From Halostagnicola kamekurae (GTDB taxonomy: Archaea; Halobacteriota; Halobacteria; Halobacteriales; Natrialbaceae), in contig NZ_FOZS01000002.1 of the NCBI RefSeq assembly GCF_900116205.1, forward strand, positions 620,001 to 684,000: DNA of 64,000 nt, given 5' to 3'. Of this stretch, positions 3,303 through 64,000 are shown piece after piece. Both the position numbers and the translations under genes were made by a program. The notes beneath the pieces were generated by a model that saw only the letters and a list, made by a program, of their open reading frames with translations, did not search any database and was not told the origin of the DNA. Every line of letters begins with the position of its first letter. The first letter of the stretch is position 1.

Positions 3303-3396
3303 AGACTGCGTGCGGCGTTCGACGAACCGTCTCGAACGAAGCTTTTGGACGATTATCTCGAGCCGAGTGAGTCGAAAAGCGCGCGGAACGGGATTG

Positions 3397-3424
3397 CTGC
3401 TGCTCGCGAATTTGCTCGCAGCAG
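3397..3424 (-). repeat. trailer hairpin 3' of tRNA-Gly, containing an 18-bp motif
   Basis: CTGCTGC (3397-3403) pairs with GCAGCAG (3418-3424). The hairpin begins 4 nt beyond the 3' end of tRNA-Gly on the minus strand. Within it, positions 3402-3419 carry an 18-bp motif that recurs identically in the other orientation at 43632-43649, just past the tRNA-Ala attachment site. It may act in tRNA 3' processing or termination. Confidence 0.5.
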
Positions 3425-3427
3425 TAA

Positions 3428-3498
3428 TGCGCGGACCGGGATTTGAACCCGGGCCATGAGCTTGGAAGGCTCAGGTCCTACCACTAGACCATCCGCGC
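3428..3498 (-). tRNA. tRNA-Gly (anticodon UCC)
   Basis: The 71-nt cloverleaf folds fully: acceptor stem GCGCGGA/TCCGCGC, D-arm GTC-TAGTGGTA-GGAC, anticodon stem TGAGC/GCTCA with loop CTTCCAA (anticodon TCC), T-stem CCGGG/CCCGG with TTCAAAT loop, discriminator A. No CCA is encoded. A TATA-like ACTTAAGG about 28 nt upstream overlaps the stop codon of the methyltransferase gene, so the tRNA could be made from its own promoter or co-transcribed with that gene. Confidence 0.96.
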
Positions 3499-3524
3499 TC
3501 CATCAGCCGATTCGAGACTCACCC

Positions 3525-4199
3525 TTAAGTGCCTTCCTTTTTCGATTGTCGGCCTCGAGCGGGTTCCGATCGAGCCACGGTCGCGTAACAGTTACCACTC
3601 GAGAGTTCGAATTCGACGAGTTCGAGGGCGCTCTCCTCGAGCGCGGTTTCGAACGCCGCCGGGGAGTAAATGTGATAGAATCGATCGACCGTTTGGCCGC
3701 CCGGAAGCGTCCACTCGACGGTCGTATCGAACGACTCGGTTTCGTCGAACGTATCGTGTGCCGTCGACCACGTGCTCACCAGCGCCCGCCCGCCGGGAGC
3801 GAGCACGCGAGCCAGTTCGTTCAGGCTCTCCCGCCTATCAGCCTCCGTGGGGAGGTGTTGGATCGTCGCGACGTAGACCGCCAGATCGACCGTTCCCTCG
3901 GCGAGCGGGATGCGAGCGGCGTCTCCCTGGAGGAGATCGACTTCGAAATCGCGGGCGCGAGCCCTCGAGCGCGCGGTCTCGAGCAACCCGCGGCTCGCGT
4001 CGATCCCGAGGACGCGATCGGTTCGCTCGGCGAGGAGTTCGGCGTGCCGACAGTTGCCACAGCCGAGGTCGAGCCCGACGCTCGAGGGCCGTGCGTCCGA
4101 GACGAAGGCTTCGACTTCGGGCCAGGCGTATTCGCGCGTCGAGGCGAAGTGCTCGGCGATCCGATCGTAGGTTCGACGAACGTCGGCGCGGGTGCTCAT
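3525..4199 (-). CDS. Trm9-like SAM-dependent methyltransferase
   Basis: A 224-residue class I methyltransferase. SAM motif I is LDLGCGNC (residues 43-50), motif II LGIDASRGLLE (64-74), then GDAARIPLA (92-100) and the APGGRALVSTW strand (134-144). The N-terminal VRRTYDRIAEHFASTR and the overall order resemble eukaryotic Trm9/ALKBH8, which methyl-esterifies wobble 5-carboxymethyluridine in tRNA and needs Trm112. That similarity is recalled family knowledge, not a search. A Trm112-like gene lies at 10526 and a tRNA-Gly(UCC), a known Trm9 substrate type in yeast, is 26 bp downstream. A generic small-molecule methyltransferase cannot be excluded. TATA-like GCTTTTGAC lies near 4226-4233. Confidence 0.7.
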   Translation of the reverse strand: MSTRADVRRTYDRIAEHFASTREYAWPEVEAFVSDARPSSVGLDLGCGNCRHAELLAERTDRVLGIDASRGLLETARSRARARDFEVDLLQGDAARIPLAEGTVDLAVYVATIQHLPTEADRRESLNELARVLAPGGRALVSTWSTAHDTFDETESFDTTVEWTLPGGQTVDRFYHIYSPAAFETALEESALELVEFELSSGNCYATVARSEPARGRQSKKEGT

Positions 4200-4375: not shown

Positions 4376-4861
4376 ATGCACGGAATGAGGCGCGAGCACT
4401 TCACGCTAGATGTCAGTAATGTCGACTGGGTCGATACCGATAGCGAACCCCGAAAACCAGAGGTATCGATCGAGTTTACCGGCCCGACGACGGAGCTTCG
4501 TGAACGCCTCACAGGACCGGATGGCACCCTGCTTGCCGCCGACGAGACCGACGCCTCGCTTCGATTGCAATCGCCGCTGGGAAGCGAGGACGACGTCGCA
4601 GGTGTCGTCAGCGTCACGAACAGGATTACGGGGGAGTTCATCCTCGAGCTCAACGAGGAGGCGGCCGACGTCCTCCAGTTCATCCAGGCCGCTCGAGGCT
4701 ATGGGGAACACACCGCCGAGGACGATGGGCGGTACGAGGTCGAGATCAGCATCGACGGCGATCCGTTCGTCAGCTACGACAAGCGGACGTTCCTCGTCTA
4801 CGACGACGAGGGGAGCCTCCTGCGCCAACACAGCTTGATCCCGAGCGGGGTCGAGCTGTAG
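4376..4861 (+). CDS. conserved haloarchaeal hypothetical protein
   Basis: A 161-residue soluble, very acidic protein starting MHGMRREHFTLDV. It has alternating beta-rich stretches (FTLDVSNVDWV, EVSIEFTG, YEVEISIDGDPFVSYDKRTFLVYDD) and a helical middle (ELNEEAADVLQFIQAARGYG). I do not recognise a characterised domain; the regular beta pattern suggests a compact sandwich. No signal peptide, membrane segment or metal motif. An alternative ATG at 4385 is possible; the upstream TATA-like element is weak. It stands alone between two divergent or single genes. Confidence 0.7.
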   Translation: MHGMRREHFTLDVSNVDWVDTDSEPRKPEVSIEFTGPTTELRERLTGPDGTLLAADETDASLRLQSPLGSEDDVAGVVSVTNRITGEFILELNEEAADVLQFIQAARGYGEHTAEDDGRYEVEISIDGDPFVSYDKRTFLVYDDEGSLLRQHSLIPSGVEL

Positions 4862-10525: not shown

Positions 10526-10720
10526 ATGAAGGAGTCGCTGCTTGAGATCCTCTGCTGTCCGCTCGATAAACACGATCTGGAACTCGAGGACGCCCAGTAC
10601 GACGGCGACGAGGTCGTCTCCGGTGACCTCGTCTGCTCGGAGTGTGGCGAGACCTATCCCATCGAGGACGGCATTCCGAACCTGCTGCCGCCGGACATGC
10701 GCGAACAGACGCCAGCGTAG
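10526..10720 (+). CDS. Trm112-like methyltransferase-activating zinc protein
   Basis: A 64-residue protein MKESLLEILCCPLDKHDLELE... with Cys10/Cys11 and Cys37-x2-Cys40 as zinc ligands and the YPIEDGIPNLLP terminus typical of the Trm112/UPF0434 family. In eukaryotes and in Haloferax, Trm112 binds and activates several methyltransferases (established knowledge); the Trm9-like enzyme at 3525-4199 is a candidate partner. CCTTTTGC at 10496-10503 is a promoter-like element 27 nt upstream of the ATG. The next gene starts 10 bp downstream, so the two are probably one operon. Confidence 0.8.
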   Translation: MKESLLEILCCPLDKHDLELEDAQYDGDEVVSGDLVCSECGETYPIEDGIPNLLPPDMREQTPA

Positions 10721-24839: not shown

Positions 24840-27560
24840 ATGACCGACGCGGCACAGACCGGCCTCGACTCGTTTTCTCCCGAGTCCGACGAGCGGCCGG
24901 CGGAAGAAGCGATGGCCGTCGCTGGGAACGGCGGAGCGGATCGTTCGGAAGTGGTCGACGTCGTCGAGGAAACGATCCCCGAGGCCACGGGCGAACTCGA
25001 CCTCGCCGTGATGCAGGTCGATTATACGATCGACGGCTACGGCGACGACGAGCGCGTGATCATGAACGTGTTCGGTCGAACTCCCGACGGAACGCTCGAG
25101 CACGTCCGCGTTCTCGGGTTCCGGCCGTACTTTTACGCGCCCACAGAGTCGCTCGAGCACCCGCCGGAAGAGGAGTACGACCGGTTGACCGGCCACGAAG
25201 AGACCGACGAAGACGACGAGCCCTACGAGAGTATCCGCGGCGAGAAACTGACGAAGATATTCGGCCAGACGCCGCGAGACGTCGGGAAAGTCAGAGACGA
25301 GTTCGAGCACTTCGAGGCCGACGTCCTGTTCCCGAACCGGTTTCTCATCGACAAGGACGTTCGAAGCGGGATCACGGTCGCCGAACGACGGGCCGACGAC
25401 GGGACGCTCCACGTTCCACACGACGAAGTGGCCGCGGCCGACGTCGACGCCGACCCGCGCGTCTGTACCTTCGACATCGAGGTCAACGACCGGGCCGGGT
25501 TCCCCGAAGACGGCGAGGAACCCATCGTCTGTCTCACGAGCCACGACTCCTACCGCGACGAGTACGTGATGTGGCTCTACGAGGCACCGGTCGGCGACGG
25601 GGCGACCCCGACGGCGATCGAGGAGTACGAACCGATCGAAGGCGACATCGACCACGAGGTCCGAAGCTTCGCCGACGAGGAGGCGATGCTCGAGGCGTTT
25701 CTCGATTACGTCGACGACACCGATCCGGATATCCTCACGGGTTGGAACTTCGAGGACTTCGACTGCCCGTACTTCCTCGATCGGCTCGAGGAACTCGAGG
25801 GACCGCACCACGACTACGACCTGAACCCGGATCGCCTCTCGCGCGTCGACGAGGTCTGGCGAAGCGGCTGGGGCGGTCCCGACGTGAAAGGCCGCGTCGT
25901 GTTCGACCTGCTGTATGCGTACCAGCGGATGGTCTTCTCGGAACTCGACTCCTACCGGCTCGACGCCGTCGGCGAGGCCGAACTCGGCGTCGGCAAGGAA
26001 CGCTACGCCGGCTCGATCGGCGACCTCTGGGAGGACGACCCGACGCGCCTGCTCGAGTACAACCTCCGGGACGTCGAACTCTGCGTCGAACTCGATCGCC
26101 AACAGGAGATCATCGCCTTCTGGGACGAGGTGCGCTCGTTCGTCGGCTGTAAACTCGAGGACGCCCCGACGCCCGGCGATACCGTCGACATGTACGTCCT
26201 TCATCAGGCCCATGGCCAGTTCGCGCTTCCCTCGAAAGGCCAGCAGGAAGCCGACGAGGAGTACGAGGGCGGGGCCGTCTTTGAGCCGATTACGGGCGTT
26301 CGAGAGAACGTCACCGTCCTCGACCTGAAGAGCCTGTATCCGATGTGTATGGTGACGATCAACGCCTCGCCGGAGACGAAAGTCGACCCCGAAACCTACG
26401 ACGGCGAGACCCACGTCGCGCCCTCTGGAACGCACTTCCGGAAGAAGCCCGACGGCGTGATGCGAGAGATGATCAACGAACTGCTCGCAGAGCGAGAGGA
26501 GAAGAAGTCGCTCCGAAACGAGTACGAACCCGGCACTCGCGAGTACGAGCAGTACGACCGCCAGCAAGGGGCCGTGAAGGTCATCATGAACAGCCTCTAC
26601 GGCGTGTCGGGGTGGGAGCGGTTCCGTCTCTACGACAAGGATGCAGCATCGGCGATCACCGCCACGGGACGAGAGGTCATCGAGTTCACCGAAACCGCAG
26701 CGAGCGAGCTCGATCACACCGTCGCCTACGGGGACACAGACTCGGTCATGCTCGAGCTCGGACCGGACGTTACGAAAGAGGACGCGCTCGAGCAGTCGTT
26801 CGACATCGAGGATTACGTCAACGACCGCTACGACGACTTCGCGCGCGAGGAACTGAACGCAGACTCCCATCGCTTCCAGATCGAGTTCGAGAAGCTCTAC
26901 CGGCGCTTCTTCCAGGCGGGAACGAAGAAACGCTACGCGGGCCACATCGTCTGGAAGGAGGGTAAAGACGTCGACGACATCGACATCACCGGCTTCGAGT
27001 ACAAGCGATCGGACATCGCCCCGATCACGAAGGAGGTCCAGCATCAGGTCATCGAGATGATCGTCCGCGAGGGCGACATCGAGGGCGTCAAAGAGTACGT
27101 CAACGGGATCATCGAGGACTTCGAATCCGGGAACGTCAACCCCGAAGAGATCGCCATTCCGGGAGGCATCGGAAAACGACTCGACAACTACGACACCGAC
27201 ACCGCACAGGTTCGCGGCGCGAAGTACGCGAACCTCCTGCTTGGAACCAACTTCGACCGCGGATCCAAGCCCAAGCGACTCTACCTCGAGCGGGTCGATC
27301 CCGCCTTCTTCCGGCGACTCGAGGACGAAGACGAGTTCGACGCCCGCCGTGACCCCCTCTACGGCGCGTTCAAACGCGACCCGGACGTCATCTGCTTCGA
27401 GTACGACGACCAGATCCCGCCCGAGTTCGAGATCGACTACGATACGATGCTCGAGAAGACGTTGAAGGGACCGATCGAACGAATCCTCGAGGCGCTCGAC
27501 GTGTCGTGGGAGGAGGTCAAATCCGGACAGGAACAGACCGGCCTCGACAGCTTCATGTGA
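24840..27560 (+). CDS. polB: replicative DNA polymerase, family B
   Basis: A 906-residue polymerase with 3'-5' exonuclease. Exo I is FDIEV (residues 211-215), Exo II lies near NFEDFDCPYF (about 302), polymerase motif A is DLKSLYP (about 494-500), motif B region KVIMNSLYGVSG (near 580), motif C YGDTDS (about 630), and KKRYAG near 697. There is no intein, although inteins are frequent at these motifs in haloarchaeal relatives. The last eight residues QTGLDSFM form a PCNA-interacting (PIP) box; the same QTGLDSF heptad also occurs at residues 6-12. ATG at 24840 is placed by TTTATC at 24811-24816. Confidence 0.96.
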   Translation: MTDAAQTGLDSFSPESDERPAEEAMAVAGNGGADRSEVVDVVEETIPEATGELDLAVMQVDYTIDGYGDDERVIMNVFGRTPDGTLEHVRVLGFRPYFYAPTESLEHPPEEEYDRLTGHEETDEDDEPYESIRGEKLTKIFGQTPRDVGKVRDEFEHFEADVLFPNRFLIDKDVRSGITVAERRADDGTLHVPHDEVAAADVDADPRVCTFDIEVNDRAGFPEDGEEPIVCLTSHDSYRDEYVMWLYEAPVGDGATPTAIEEYEPIEGDIDHEVRSFADEEAMLEAFLDYVDDTDPDILTGWNFEDFDCPYFLDRLEELEGPHHDYDLNPDRLSRVDEVWRSGWGGPDVKGRVVFDLLYAYQRMVFSELDSYRLDAVGEAELGVGKERYAGSIGDLWEDDPTRLLEYNLRDVELCVELDRQQEIIAFWDEVRSFVGCKLEDAPTPGDTVDMYVLHQAHGQFALPSKGQQEADEEYEGGAVFEPITGVRENVTVLDLKSLYPMCMVTINASPETKVDPETYDGETHVAPSGTHFRKKPDGVMREMINELLAEREEKKSLRNEYEPGTREYEQYDRQQGAVKVIMNSLYGVSGWERFRLYDKDAASAITATGREVIEFTETAASELDHTVAYGDTDSVMLELGPDVTKEDALEQSFDIEDYVNDRYDDFAREELNADSHRFQIEFEKLYRRFFQAGTKKRYAGHIVWKEGKDVDDIDITGFEYKRSDIAPITKEVQHQVIEMIVREGDIEGVKEYVNGIIEDFESGNVNPEEIAIPGGIGKRLDNYDTDTAQVRGAKYANLLLGTNFDRGSKPKRLYLERVDPAFFRRLEDEDEFDARRDPLYGAFKRDPDVICFEYDDQIPPEFEIDYDTMLEKTLKGPIERILEALDVSWEEVKSGQEQTGLDSFM

Positions 27561-40594: not shown

Positions 40595-40879
40595 TGTTGA
40601 GGATAGGAAACGCACTGACCGCCGCATATGTCCGGCTCTCGCCGGGTTGCACTTCCGCAATCTCGAGTCACCCAAAGAGAGCGGGCGACGGGGTCAGATT
40701 TGCGGCCGTGCGGTTCCCACTGGTACCTATTCGGTCAGCGACTAAAGGGTTTCTACCTCGAGTTACGCGGACCACCTCCGTGATAACGGAGATGTCCATC
40801 GGCAGCATTTATGTGTTTTTGGAATGAAATATTCACATCCGAACCGGTGTGCTCACCGCCGTCACTGAATGCCCCCTTC

Positions 40880-41790: not shown

Positions 41791-41862
41791 GGGCTCGTAG
41801 ATCAGTGGTAGATCACTCCCTTGGCATGGGAGAGGCCCCGGGTTCAAATCCCGGCGAGTCCA
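41791..41862 (+). tRNA. tRNA-Ala (anticodon GGC)
   Basis: The 72-nt gene folds with acceptor stem GGGCTCG/CGAGTCC (one G-U pair), anticodon stem CTCCC/GGGAG and loop TTGGCAT (anticodon GGC), T-arm CCGGG-TTCAAAT-CCCGG and discriminator A; CCA is not encoded beyond the discriminator. Its 3' end is the attachment site of the integrated element. The intact gene is kept because the element supplies the same 3' sequence. Confidence 0.96.
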
Positions 41863-41864
41863 CT
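41840..41864 (+). repeat. attL, 25-bp direct repeat at the tRNA-Ala 3' end
   Basis: The 25 bp from the T-arm through the discriminator and two flanking bases (starting GGGTTCAAATCCCGG) recur exactly at 43597-43621. The base before the repeat differs (C at 41839, T at 43596), marking the limit of identity. Confidence 0.85.
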
Positions 41865-41905
41865 CGAACGTAGTGAGAGTGGACGAGCCGGCCTTCTGCC
41901 GGTTT
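41860..41905 (+). terminator. hairpins directly after tRNA-Ala
   Basis: CCACTC (41860-41865) pairs with GAGTGG (41877-41882), overlapping the tRNA end, and CCGGC (41888-41892) pairs with GCCGG (41898-41902) followed by TTT. The second looks like a terminator for the tRNA transcript and belongs to the integrated DNA. Confidence 0.5.
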
Positions 41906-42043
41906 CGTCCCTTGCCTTATCTTCTGCGCACAACGATTTCGAGTGAATTTCCGGCATTTTTCTCGCTGTGATTTGAAGCGGTGGCCTCTCTCGGTCGTCG
42001 TCTGCTGGCGGTAACTCCCATTAGAACAATGGAATAGATAAAA

Positions 42044-42412
42044 TCAATCCTGCTGGTGGGGTAGGCTTGGTGGTTCTGGTCTTGCCCCCTCATTTCTGTG
42101 AATCCAGTAATCACCTAATGCAGACAGACCTAAGGCGGCGCTTATGGGCATAGTTTCTGGTACTGCAATTCCTATCATTATTGAGAACCCTTGGCCAAGT
42201 AACCAGAACACAGGAATCAAAACACCAATTACTCCAACTAATCGTTCGATCCTTGTCCAGTCAACAGCAGTTTGATATATATTGACCTGTGAACCAGCGC
42301 CCATCCCTCCAGTTAATTCTTCAACTTGTTCATGCCTTTGCTGTCGCTGGAGCAAGTCACGCGCAAACTCTTCTGCTGATTGGTCTTCTGAAGGTTCACT
42401 CTCTTTGGGCAT
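42044..42412 (-). CDS. small membrane protein of the integrative element
   Basis: A 122-residue protein. Residues 1-40 are helical and charged (EEFARDLLQRQQRHEQVEELTGG), then a short strand (SQVNIYQTAVDW) and two hydrophobic helices (about 58-80 and 84-102), ending in a Pro-rich tail. No family recognised. An AT-rich TTTATTTTAC element (about 42431-42440, minus strand) lies about 25 nt before the ATG. It is transcribed in the same direction as the integrase, 36 bp downstream of it, and may be its operon partner. Confidence 0.6.
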   Translation of the reverse strand: MPKESEPSEDQSAEEFARDLLQRQQRHEQVEELTGGMGAGSQVNIYQTAVDWTRIERLVGVIGVLIPVFWLLGQGFSIMIGIAVPETMPISAALGLSALGDYWIHRNEGARPEPPSLPHQQD

Positions 42413-42448
42413 AATGACGAAAAATGTACCTGTAAAATAAAAAATTGG

Positions 42449-43447
42449 CTATAGACGATCGAGGAATTCTGCTCGTCGCTGGCGCTTCTCGCTGATCGAG
42501 GCCTTATCGTAATGTTTGTCCAACACTTCCTGACTCACATCAGCTCGGTCACTGACTGCCTCAACTGGCCAACCCTTGTTCCGATGGTAGGTGATCGACC
42601 CCTTACGAATTGCGTGAGGACTGACGGAGGAGGGACAAAAGTTGGCCTTCGAGCTGTTAACGGCCTCGCACTCGTCCATGTCGCGGTCGTGGGGGCACTT
42701 ATTGGAATAGTGGCAGGGACGAGTAATCTTGTAGACGTGTGAACGGATCGTTGTCTCGTGGGCGCGTCCGTGGGACGTACAGATTAGCGGCATTCGACCG
42801 TGATCGTCCTCGACGCGAGGGTGTTGATCGTGAACCCAGTCATTGAGGGTTTGAACGAGGCCACTTCCCAGGTTAATCTCCCTCTCGCCCTGGGTTCGGT
42901 TTTTTAGTGGTGTTCCTGTGGACTCTCGATTAACCGCTTTAATATAGCCTTCTCCCGGGTGAAAGTCGGTCACGTCGAATGCACGTAGCGTGCTGGTCCG
43001 GATACCAGTATGCCACAGCAAGTGAAATATGACGTGGCGAAGCGTCGCATATTCGTACTTATTCAAGTACTCCAAGATCAACTCGGCTTCTTCCGGGGTG
43101 ATCGCCGTGTCATTAACGTCCTCGTTCATACCGAGCTTAGGAAGCTCGACCTTCTCGCTTAATCCGGGCGGAACCGCGTCGATTCGCTCACAGAACACGA
43201 GGAACTGACGGATGGTTCCGAGCTGGTTCTGAAGCGTGACGTTATTCACTTCCTCTGATCTCCAGACCTTAAACTCGTGGAGTTTTCGGCCAGTAAGTTC
43301 GTTGAGGTTATCCAGATCGGTTTCCTCGCACCATTCTACGAATCGTTCGACCCGGTATCCGTGATTCTGCTTTGAGGTGACGCTGAGGTCAGTACGGTCT
43401 TCAAGGTACAATTCTTTGGCCTGTCGTGGTGTGATTGGTTCGAGCAT
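42449..43447 (-). CDS. tyrosine recombinase / integrase (XerC-like)
   Basis: A 332-residue site-specific recombinase. The N-terminal SAM-like core-binding domain spans about residues 1-100; the catalytic domain holds Arg150 (HTGIRTSTLR), His278-x2-Arg281 (SPHAIRKGS), His312 and nucleophile Tyr313 (LDKHYDKAS). An inserted Cys set, C245, C251, C260 and C271, may bind zinc. It would recombine the tRNA-Ala 3' end with the element's att site. The gene starts about 150 bp from attR and reads inward. All catalytic residues are intact, so activity is possible. Confidence 0.92.
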   Translation of the reverse strand: MLEPITPRQAKELYLEDRTDLSVTSKQNHGYRVERFVEWCEETDLDNLNELTGRKLHEFKVWRSEEVNNVTLQNQLGTIRQFLVFCERIDAVPPGLSEKVELPKLGMNEDVNDTAITPEEAELILEYLNKYEYATLRHVIFHLLWHTGIRTSTLRAFDVTDFHPGEGYIKAVNRESTGTPLKNRTQGEREINLGSGLVQTLNDWVHDQHPRVEDDHGRMPLICTSHGRAHETTIRSHVYKITRPCHYSNKCPHDRDMDECEAVNSSKANFCPSSVSPHAIRKGSITYHRNKGWPVEAVSDRADVSQEVLDKHYDKASISEKRQRRAEFLDRL

Positions 43448-43508
43448 GGTTTCTCTTGAACCACCGGCAGACCGACGCTCGGGCGGTCACCGCGAGAGGA
43501 GCGAGCGG

Positions 43509-43521
43509 GTGGACTCGCCGG
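43509..43521 (-). repeat. inverted 13-bp copy of the tRNA-Ala att core
   Basis: Read on the minus strand, CCGGCGAGTCCAC equals the tRNA-Ala 3' end (within attL and attR). It lies 62 bp upstream of the integrase ATG and 76 bp before attR in opposite orientation. Confidence 0.55.
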
Positions 43522-43571
43522 ACAGACTGAGATCCATTCCAGATCACAGCCCATGCATTGGTTGAAGCGGA

Positions 43572-43587
43572 GTACGCGTCAGCGTAC
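43572..43587. repeat. perfect inverted repeat next to attR
   Basis: GTACGC-GTCA-GCGTAC, a 6-bp stem with 4-nt spacer, lies 10 bp before attR. Its place between the integrase promoter and the crossover site suits an arm-type binding site for integrase or an accessory protein. Confidence 0.45.
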
Positions 43588-43596
43588 ACGACGCTT

Positions 43597-43621
43597 GGGT
43601 TCAAATCCCGGCGAGTCCACT
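43597..43621 (+). repeat. attR, 25-bp direct repeat
   Basis: An exact copy of 41840-41864. The sequence immediately beyond (TATTTTACGTC, then the 18-bp motif at 43632-43649) probably represents the original downstream flank of tRNA-Ala, since a like arrangement follows tRNA-Gly. Confidence 0.85.
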
Positions 43622-43631
43622 ATTTTACGTC

Positions 43632-43649
43632 GCGAGCAAATTCGCGAGC
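43632..43649 (+). repeat. 18-bp tRNA-trailer motif, second copy
   Basis: Identical in sense orientation to the motif downstream of tRNA-Gly (3402-3419, minus strand). It starts 13 nt after the discriminator-equivalent base of attR; the tRNA-Gly copy starts 9 nt after its discriminator. Confidence 0.6.
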
Positions 43650-43670
43650 GGCGCATATAGTCGGCGAAGG

Positions 43671-63063: not shown

Positions 63064-64000
63064 ATGAGCACGTGGATCGGTGAGACGTTCACGAGCGACG
63101 CCGGCTGGAATCATCTCGAGGAACTAGTCGACATCGGGTCTCGGATGGCGGGCAGCGACGGCGAGCGCGAGGCCGCGGAACGGACGCGGGGGGCGCTCGC
63201 CAGCGCCGGCGCGCGAAACGCGCGCCTCGAGTCGTTTGACGTGCAGGGGTGGACCCGCGGCGAAAGTTCGATTCGGAGCGAACAGTCCTCGTCGTCGCTC
63301 GGCCTCGAGCACGCCTCGATCGCGCTCCCGCGGAGTCCGTCGGCGACCGCCACCGCCGAACTGGTCGACCTCGGATACGGGCTCCCGGAATCGTTCGCCG
63401 AGACGGATATAGACGGGAAGATCGTCATGGTCAGAAGCGACGTTCCGGACCACTACGAGCGCTACGTTCACCGGCGAGAGAAGTACTACCACGCGGTCGA
63501 CAGCGGTGCGGTCGGGTTCATCTACCGAAACCACGTCGAAGGCTGTCTGCCGCCGACCGGAAGCGTCGGAACGCCGGCCGATCCGATCGGGGAGATCCCG
63601 GCGCTGGGCGTCTCGAGCGAGCTCGGCGCGCGACTCGCTCGCCGGTTCGACGGCGAAGAGATCGCGATCGAGGTCGAAGCCGACATCGGCGACGCGACGA
63701 GCCAGAACGTCCACGCCGAACTCGGCCCCGAAACGGACGAGCGCGTTCTCGTGACGAGCCACGTCGACGCACACGACATCGCCGAAGGGGCCCTCGACAA
63801 CGGTGCGGGGACCGCCATGGTCATCGAACTGGCGAACGCCCTCTCTCGGCGCGAGGACGACCTCGAGACGCGAGTGGAGTTCGTCGCCTACGGCGCGGAG
63901 GAGGTCGGGCTCGTCGGGTCGGAACACTACGCCGAGCAAGCTACCCACGACGACATCGTTGCCGTCGTCAACAACGACGGCGTCGTCGGCGATCGAACGC
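63064..64000 (+). CDS. M28-family metallopeptidase (5' part; runs off the window)
   Basis: The first 312 codons of a zinc aminopeptidase. After a short N-terminal helix (MSTWIGETFTSDAGWNHLEELVDIGSRMAGSDGERE), a PA-type inserted domain (about residues 100-200, DIDGKIVMVRSDVPDHYERY) precedes the catalytic core: SHVDAHDIAEGALDNGAG (first His/Asp), YGAEEVGLVGSEHY (catalytic Glu and ligand Glu) and VVNNDGVVGDR (Asp). No signal peptide is seen, so it is probably cytoplasmic. The 30-bp repeat array lies directly upstream. Confidence 0.88.
   Translation, partial: MSTWIGETFTSDAGWNHLEELVDIGSRMAGSDGEREAAERTRGALASAGARNARLESFDVQGWTRGESSIRSEQSSSSLGLEHASIALPRSPSATATAELVDLGYGLPESFAETDIDGKIVMVRSDVPDHYERYVHRREKYYHAVDSGAVGFIYRNHVEGCLPPTGSVGTPADPIGEIPALGVSSELGARLARRFDGEEIAIEVEADIGDATSQNVHAELGPETDERVLVTSHVDAHDIAEGALDNGAGTAMVIELANALSRREDDLETRVEFVAYGAEEVGLVGSEHYAEQATHDDIVAVVNNDGVVGDRT

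Follow-up and report, generated by a model that had tools for sequence, protein, structure and literature searches.

The window, by which we mean the whole 64,000-nucleotide stretch of DNA from Halostagnicola kamekurae (a haloarchaeon of the family Natrialbaceae) analysed here, contains on its minus strand an ORF (3525–4199, 224 aa) annotated as trm9, encoding a putative tRNA wobble-uridine cm5U methyltransferase of the Trm9/ALKBH8-MT type, an assignment based on searches, a reciprocal best hit and conserved residues. Its TAA stop codon (3525–3527) is followed, after a gap of 26 bp (3499–3524), by the gene for tRNA-Gly(UCC) (3428–3498, minus strand; anticodon TCC), which was detected by ARAGORN and by Rfam RF00005 (70.8 bits) and is present in a single copy in the genome. 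A sequence-only reading of this DNA had placed a Trm9-like gene 26 bp before a same-strand tRNA-Gly(UCC), and the coordinates agree, the range 3428–4199 spanning both genes. As that reading also noted, a tRNA promoter box overlaps the methyltransferase stop: the TAA lies inside the hexamer CTTAAG (3524–3529), some 28 nt 5' of the tRNA gene. This hexamer is preceded by GAAAAAGGAAG, so that the element as a whole (GAAAAAGGAAG...CTTAAG, 3524–3543, minus strand) reads as a haloarchaeal BRE and box A, with the putative promoter overlapping not only the stop but also the last codons of trm9, which encode the residues SKKEGT.

Upstream of trm9 lies a divergent gene for a DUF5793 protein (4376–4861, plus strand), which belongs to the same ancestral gene block. 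The gene for the putative activator subunit, trm112 (10526–10720, plus strand; NF038101 and PF03966), scores 111 bits with the NCBIfam model Trm112_arch, whose cut-off is 77, and is 6.3 kb from the trm9 start, in keeping with the Trm112-like gene that the sequence-only reading placed 6 kb away. The Elp3 gene (802 bits) is outside the window, at 609095–610693 of the contig, 13 kb from trm9.

Searches of Pfam and NCBIfam returned only generic methyltransferase names for the trm9 product. The predicted model (pLDDT 89) shows the fold of a class I SAM methyltransferase, extended by further strands at the C-terminus, and its structural alignment with Trm9 of Yarrowia lipolytica (PDB 5cm2; Z 22.0, rmsd 2.3 over 175 residues) is equalled by many class I methyltransferases, the VIA-align Z-scores giving no separation of Trm9 from other members of this class. 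Such results are compatible with an unrelated class I methyltransferase (e.g. UbiE/MenG-like) that merely resembles Trm9. However, the sequence, profile and reciprocal searches favour Trm9 by many orders of magnitude: the best relative of the ORF in the PDB was 5cm2_Z, the Yarrowia Trm9, both by phmmer (E-value 1e-18, versus 4e-11 for the next, unrelated methyltransferase) and by hmmsearch with a profile (5e-25 versus 3e-13), and with Yarrowia Trm9 as the query the ORF was recovered from the genome at 4e-19 (next gene, 2e-4), making the two reciprocal best hits. Foldseek likewise gave 5cm2_Z as the top match, so that Trm9 ranked ahead of other methyltransferases in all three kinds of search, in line with the Trm9-like label of the sequence-only reading. 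In addition, the similarity to Trm9 covers almost the full length of the protein and takes in the RFYHIY and GN motifs at the C-terminus. We consider an unrelated methyltransferase very improbable.

Five residues of Saccharomyces cerevisiae Trm9 that matter by mutation (R29, H115, R241, Y243 and N271), as reported in PMC5372719, align with R22, H115, R173, Y175 and N202 of the trm9 product, the equivalences being taken from alignments rather than from superposition. R22, H115, R173 and Y175 are invariant in 23 orthologues, and N202 is conserved in the rows that reach this position. The nearest protein by sequence is from Halostagnicola (81% identity). Matches to trm9 were found in 293 of the 293 genomes searched in the order, with the best match in a few incomplete genomes too weak for an orthologue; outside the order, the gene is uncommon in the phylum. 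The ORF at 3525–4199 is thus assigned, by sequence comparison, as the haloarchaeal Trm9 orthologue. In the review PMC5372719, HVO_1032 was already proposed as the Haloferax volcanii Trm9, the better-scoring orthologue in that species, with relatives in Halobacteriales, so that the protein described here is a known archaeal Trm9, apparently little tested biochemically.

H. volcanii belongs to the same order and has the same enzyme set (Elp3 and Trm112). The Trm9-Trm112 complex of Saccharomyces and Yarrowia (PDB 5cm2) resembles the putative haloarchaeal pair in fold, in active-site residues and in the presence of the partner gene, and tRNA-Gly(UCC) is among the yeast substrates. The haloarchaeal Trm9 shares about 29–33% identity with its yeast counterparts, and of the six subunits of the Elongator that forms cm5U in yeast, archaea have only Elp3.

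Both Elp3 and Trm112 are present in all 44 genomes tested. Elp3 would be expected to add a carboxymethyl group to the wobble uridine (cm5U34), and Trm9 with Trm112 would methylate this group to give mcm5U or a related derivative; the targets would be several U34 tRNAs including tRNA-Gly(UCC). We infer this reaction and its substrate for an enzyme whose family is established by the comparisons above. Since U34 of the H. volcanii tRNA-Gly(UCC) is reported to be modified, on the evidence of Gupta's tRNA sequences as cited by Grosjean et al. (2008, PMC2584109), this tRNA is a plausible candidate substrate of Trm9. Together with the orthology of the enzyme, this bears out the proposal that a Trm9-Trm112 enzyme set and a plausible substrate are encoded here.

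Grosjean et al. record the chemistry of the H. volcanii U34 as unidentified. The isoleucine tRNAs of haloarchaea are reported to contain 5-cyanomethyluridine (cnm5U; Mandal 2014, as cited in PMC7668247), so that mcm5U might be an intermediate. It is conceivable, then, that an enzyme of the Trm9 clade performs a different reaction in haloarchaea, acting on another cm5U-derived acid or on an intermediate towards ncm5U or cnm5U, or serving mainly tRNAs other than Gly(UCC); the H. volcanii Trm112 has further methyltransferase partners, e.g. Hvo_0019 (PDB 6f5z). Yet every known catalytic and tRNA-orienting residue of yeast Trm9 is retained, and the co-occurrence of Elp3 and Trm112 in all genomes tested also speaks against such a departure, which we regard as unlikely.

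The linkage of trm9 to tRNA-Gly(UCC) is widespread. In 84 of 114 genomes sampled from the order and the phylum, representing twelve families, trm9 is followed within 5 kb by tRNA-Gly(UCC) in the same orientation, some of the genomes without the pairing having been read over a flank of only 1.5 kb; the gap is below 350 bp in 48 of the 84. In a collection of named loci, the pairing was present within about 2.5 kb in 69 of 80, a set that leans to close relatives because the loci were chosen as best matches. Spacing varies from a 28-nt overlap to more than 3,600 bp (>3.6 kb), with the two genes on the same strand in nearly all genomes. The pairing persists in three families (f2, f12 and f15) in which trm9 is only about 46–52% identical; in families f9, f10, f11 and f16, and in those genomes of the outgroup f26 that have trm9, the sequence read did not contain it. 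The adjacency is beyond chance and is ancestral in the order Halobacteriales. The available literature passages on archaeal Trm9 contained no mention of it.

Two other linkages do not extend as far. The idea that Elp3 and Trm9 (13 kb apart here) form a pathway cluster was rejected, since the two genes lie within 20 kb of each other in only 2 of 44 genomes. Within the same family, 16 of 24 genomes have Trm112 and Trm9 no more than 20 kb apart, as against 0 of 20 outside it, and closeness confined to the family indicates family-level gene order rather than function. In Sulfolobus solfataricus, by contrast, trm9 and elp3 are clustered (PMC2584109); there too an archaeal trm9 stands beside something of its own pathway, although the neighbour is the upstream enzyme, whereas here it is a candidate substrate tRNA, with Elp3 13 kb away at a distance that is not conserved.

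Since most haloarchaeal tRNA genes retain their upstream neighbour, a conserved adjacency between an enzyme gene and a tRNA gene needs a base-rate control. Each of the 42 tRNA loci of this genome was set against those of two genomes that belong to other families. The upstream gene is retained at 26 and 29 of the 42 loci (62–69%), and the downstream gene at just 5 and 7; these rates are slightly lowered by the inclusion in the denominator of two tRNAs called by ARAGORN alone, tRNA-Pro(GGG) and tRNA-Ser(CGA), neither of which has conserved neighbours. (These two calls, at 24887–24965 and 63257–63354, lack Rfam support and have better copies elsewhere in the genome, and are likely to be false positives.) At 22 loci the upstream gene is kept in both comparisons, trm9-tRNA-Gly(UCC) being one of them. 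The asymmetry between the upstream and downstream sides fits the insertion of mobile DNA at tRNA 3' ends.

A control for adjacency of an enzyme and a tRNA without function is provided by trm5, which in this genome lies about 100 bp before tRNA-Thr(CGU) on the same strand, a pair conserved in three families and as firmly linked as trm9 and tRNA-Gly(UCC). Like trm9, it is a tRNA methyltransferase gene upstream of a tRNA. Trm5 makes m1G37, and since tRNA-Thr(CGU) has A37, this tRNA is not a Trm5 substrate. Other conserved neighbours of this kind are the CCA-adding enzyme by tRNA-Asn and a TruB/Cbf5-type synthase before tRNA-Pro. With about 7 U34-modified tRNAs among about 45, we estimate at roughly one in six the chance that the tRNA adjoining a U34 enzyme is one of them. 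Because about two thirds of tRNA genes keep their upstream neighbour, the trm9 pairing looks mostly like inherited gene order, and the linkage is special only mildly.

The flanks on the other side of the tRNA genes yielded observations of their own, which we find more surprising than the trm9 pairing. Directly 3' of tRNA-Gly(UCC) is a hairpin (3395–3426, minus strand) with a GA-RC-N6-GY-GA tip, an example of an element that is general in the 3' flanks of haloarchaeal tRNAs. Genome-wide, hairpins 3' of tRNA genes share a stem with covarying pairs and a conserved tip, GA-RC-N(3-6)-GY-GA, with tandem G-A pairs. A model of this hairpin (R1), trained on 16 sequences of which seven are from this genome, gave 18 matches with E<0.5 in 4.1 Mb, of which 15 are no more than 300 nt 3' of a same-strand tRNA gene; the other three are 1.8–5.3 kb downstream of a tRNA gene. 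At the tip pair, which was left out of the selection, 9 of the 16 sequences have G-C and 7 have A-U. A limited literature search found no description of a hairpin 3' of haloarchaeal tRNAs. Many haloarchaeal tRNA genes are followed by tandem units of about 75–165 nt, each ending in a copy of the 3'-terminal 18 nt of that tRNA and often followed by the hairpin. Such units were found at 13 of 42, 23 of 44 and 18 of 42 tRNAs in three genomes from three families, compared with 0–1 in the 5' flank and 0.1–0.4 for the tails of other tRNAs. They resemble the tyrT repeats of E. coli, and could be integration remnants or a processing or termination array. Also in the window, a small integrated element is present in tRNA-Ala(GGC) (region 41791–43653). 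It carries an integrase-like ORF (42449–43447, minus strand), and the tRNA 3' end is duplicated near 43600–43622; behind the second copy of the tRNA end stands the original hairpin, displaced, while the hairpin that now follows the tRNA comes from the element. A S15-Halobacteria ribosomal protein leader (RF03143, 71.6 bits) is located at 40649–40720 (minus strand).

How tRNA-Gly(UCC) is transcribed bears on whether the pairing is functional. In most genomes of the same family, a purine-rich/CTTAAA element is found about 27 nt upstream of tRNA-Gly(UCC), at gaps from 12 bp to 1.4 kb, and since it is kept at any gap length, even with more than 1 kb of intervening DNA, the element belongs to the tRNA; no box A was seen at this position in some other families. 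On the other hand, a T5 run occurs in the trm9-tRNA gap at only 2 of the 48 loci with a gap below 350 bp, and in five species (Natrialba asiatica, N. taiwanensis, N. aegyptia, Natrinema mahii and Natronolimnohabitans innermongolicus) a TGA that lies 28 nt into tRNA-Gly(UCC) closes the trm9 frame, such that RNase P would cut the stop codon off a read-through mRNA. These features, together with the nearly constant strand, are what would be expected if transcription of trm9 continued into tRNA-Gly(UCC), making the substrate tRNA the 3' end of the mRNA of its own enzyme, with the result that RNase P cleavage, or binding of Trm9 to the embedded tRNA, tied the enzyme level to tRNA supply. Against this stand the spacing, which varies between −28 and over 3,600 bp while the tRNA has its own conserved promoter in the family, the many tRNAs that keep unrelated neighbours, the position of trm5 before a tRNA that is not its substrate, and the need for Trm9 to serve several tRNAs encoded elsewhere. 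We regard functional adjacency of this kind as unlikely. The more specific proposal, in which the trm9 mRNA ends in its own substrate tRNA-Gly(UCC) and RNase P maturation sets the mRNA 3' end, coupling Trm9 output to the supply or modification state of that tRNA, is improbable.

The explanation that we favour, and hold to be probably correct, is that a haloarchaeal Trm9 acting on cm5U34 tRNAs is encoded in an ancestral gene order next to a tRNA gene with its own promoter. Most likely the two genes are transcribed independently and Trm9 acts in trans. tRNA-Gly(UCC) would be transcribed from its own BRE and box A, which overlaps the trm9 stop, presumably through compaction; the gene order would be kept because the gene 5' of a haloarchaeal tRNA is generally retained and mobile DNA comes in at the 3' side; and no local coupling of enzyme and substrate would be needed, since Trm9 would act on several tRNAs. 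It counts against this explanation that the trm9-tRNA-Gly(UCC) linkage ranks with the more persistent ones, both genes almost always sharing a strand, and that cnm5U is on record for haloarchaeal tRNAs. The suggestion in the sequence-only reading that the pairing of enzyme and candidate substrate could be functional therefore stands in part: the Trm9 orthology, the plausible substrate and the strong conservation hold, but adjacency as evidence of function does not, given the tRNA base rate, the trm5 control, the promoter that the tRNA often has of its own, and Trm112 and Elp3 distances that hold only in close relatives. A specific functional link between trm9 and tRNA-Gly(UCC) is possible.

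Close gaps without a T-run terminator and the frame overlap in five species make co-transcription a testable new idea, and if true it would mean that a tRNA and the enzyme that modifies it are joined in a feedback of an unusual kind. With trm9 present throughout the order and a clear candidate substrate adjoining it, the long-unidentified haloarchaeal U34 modification becomes directly testable in Haloferax.
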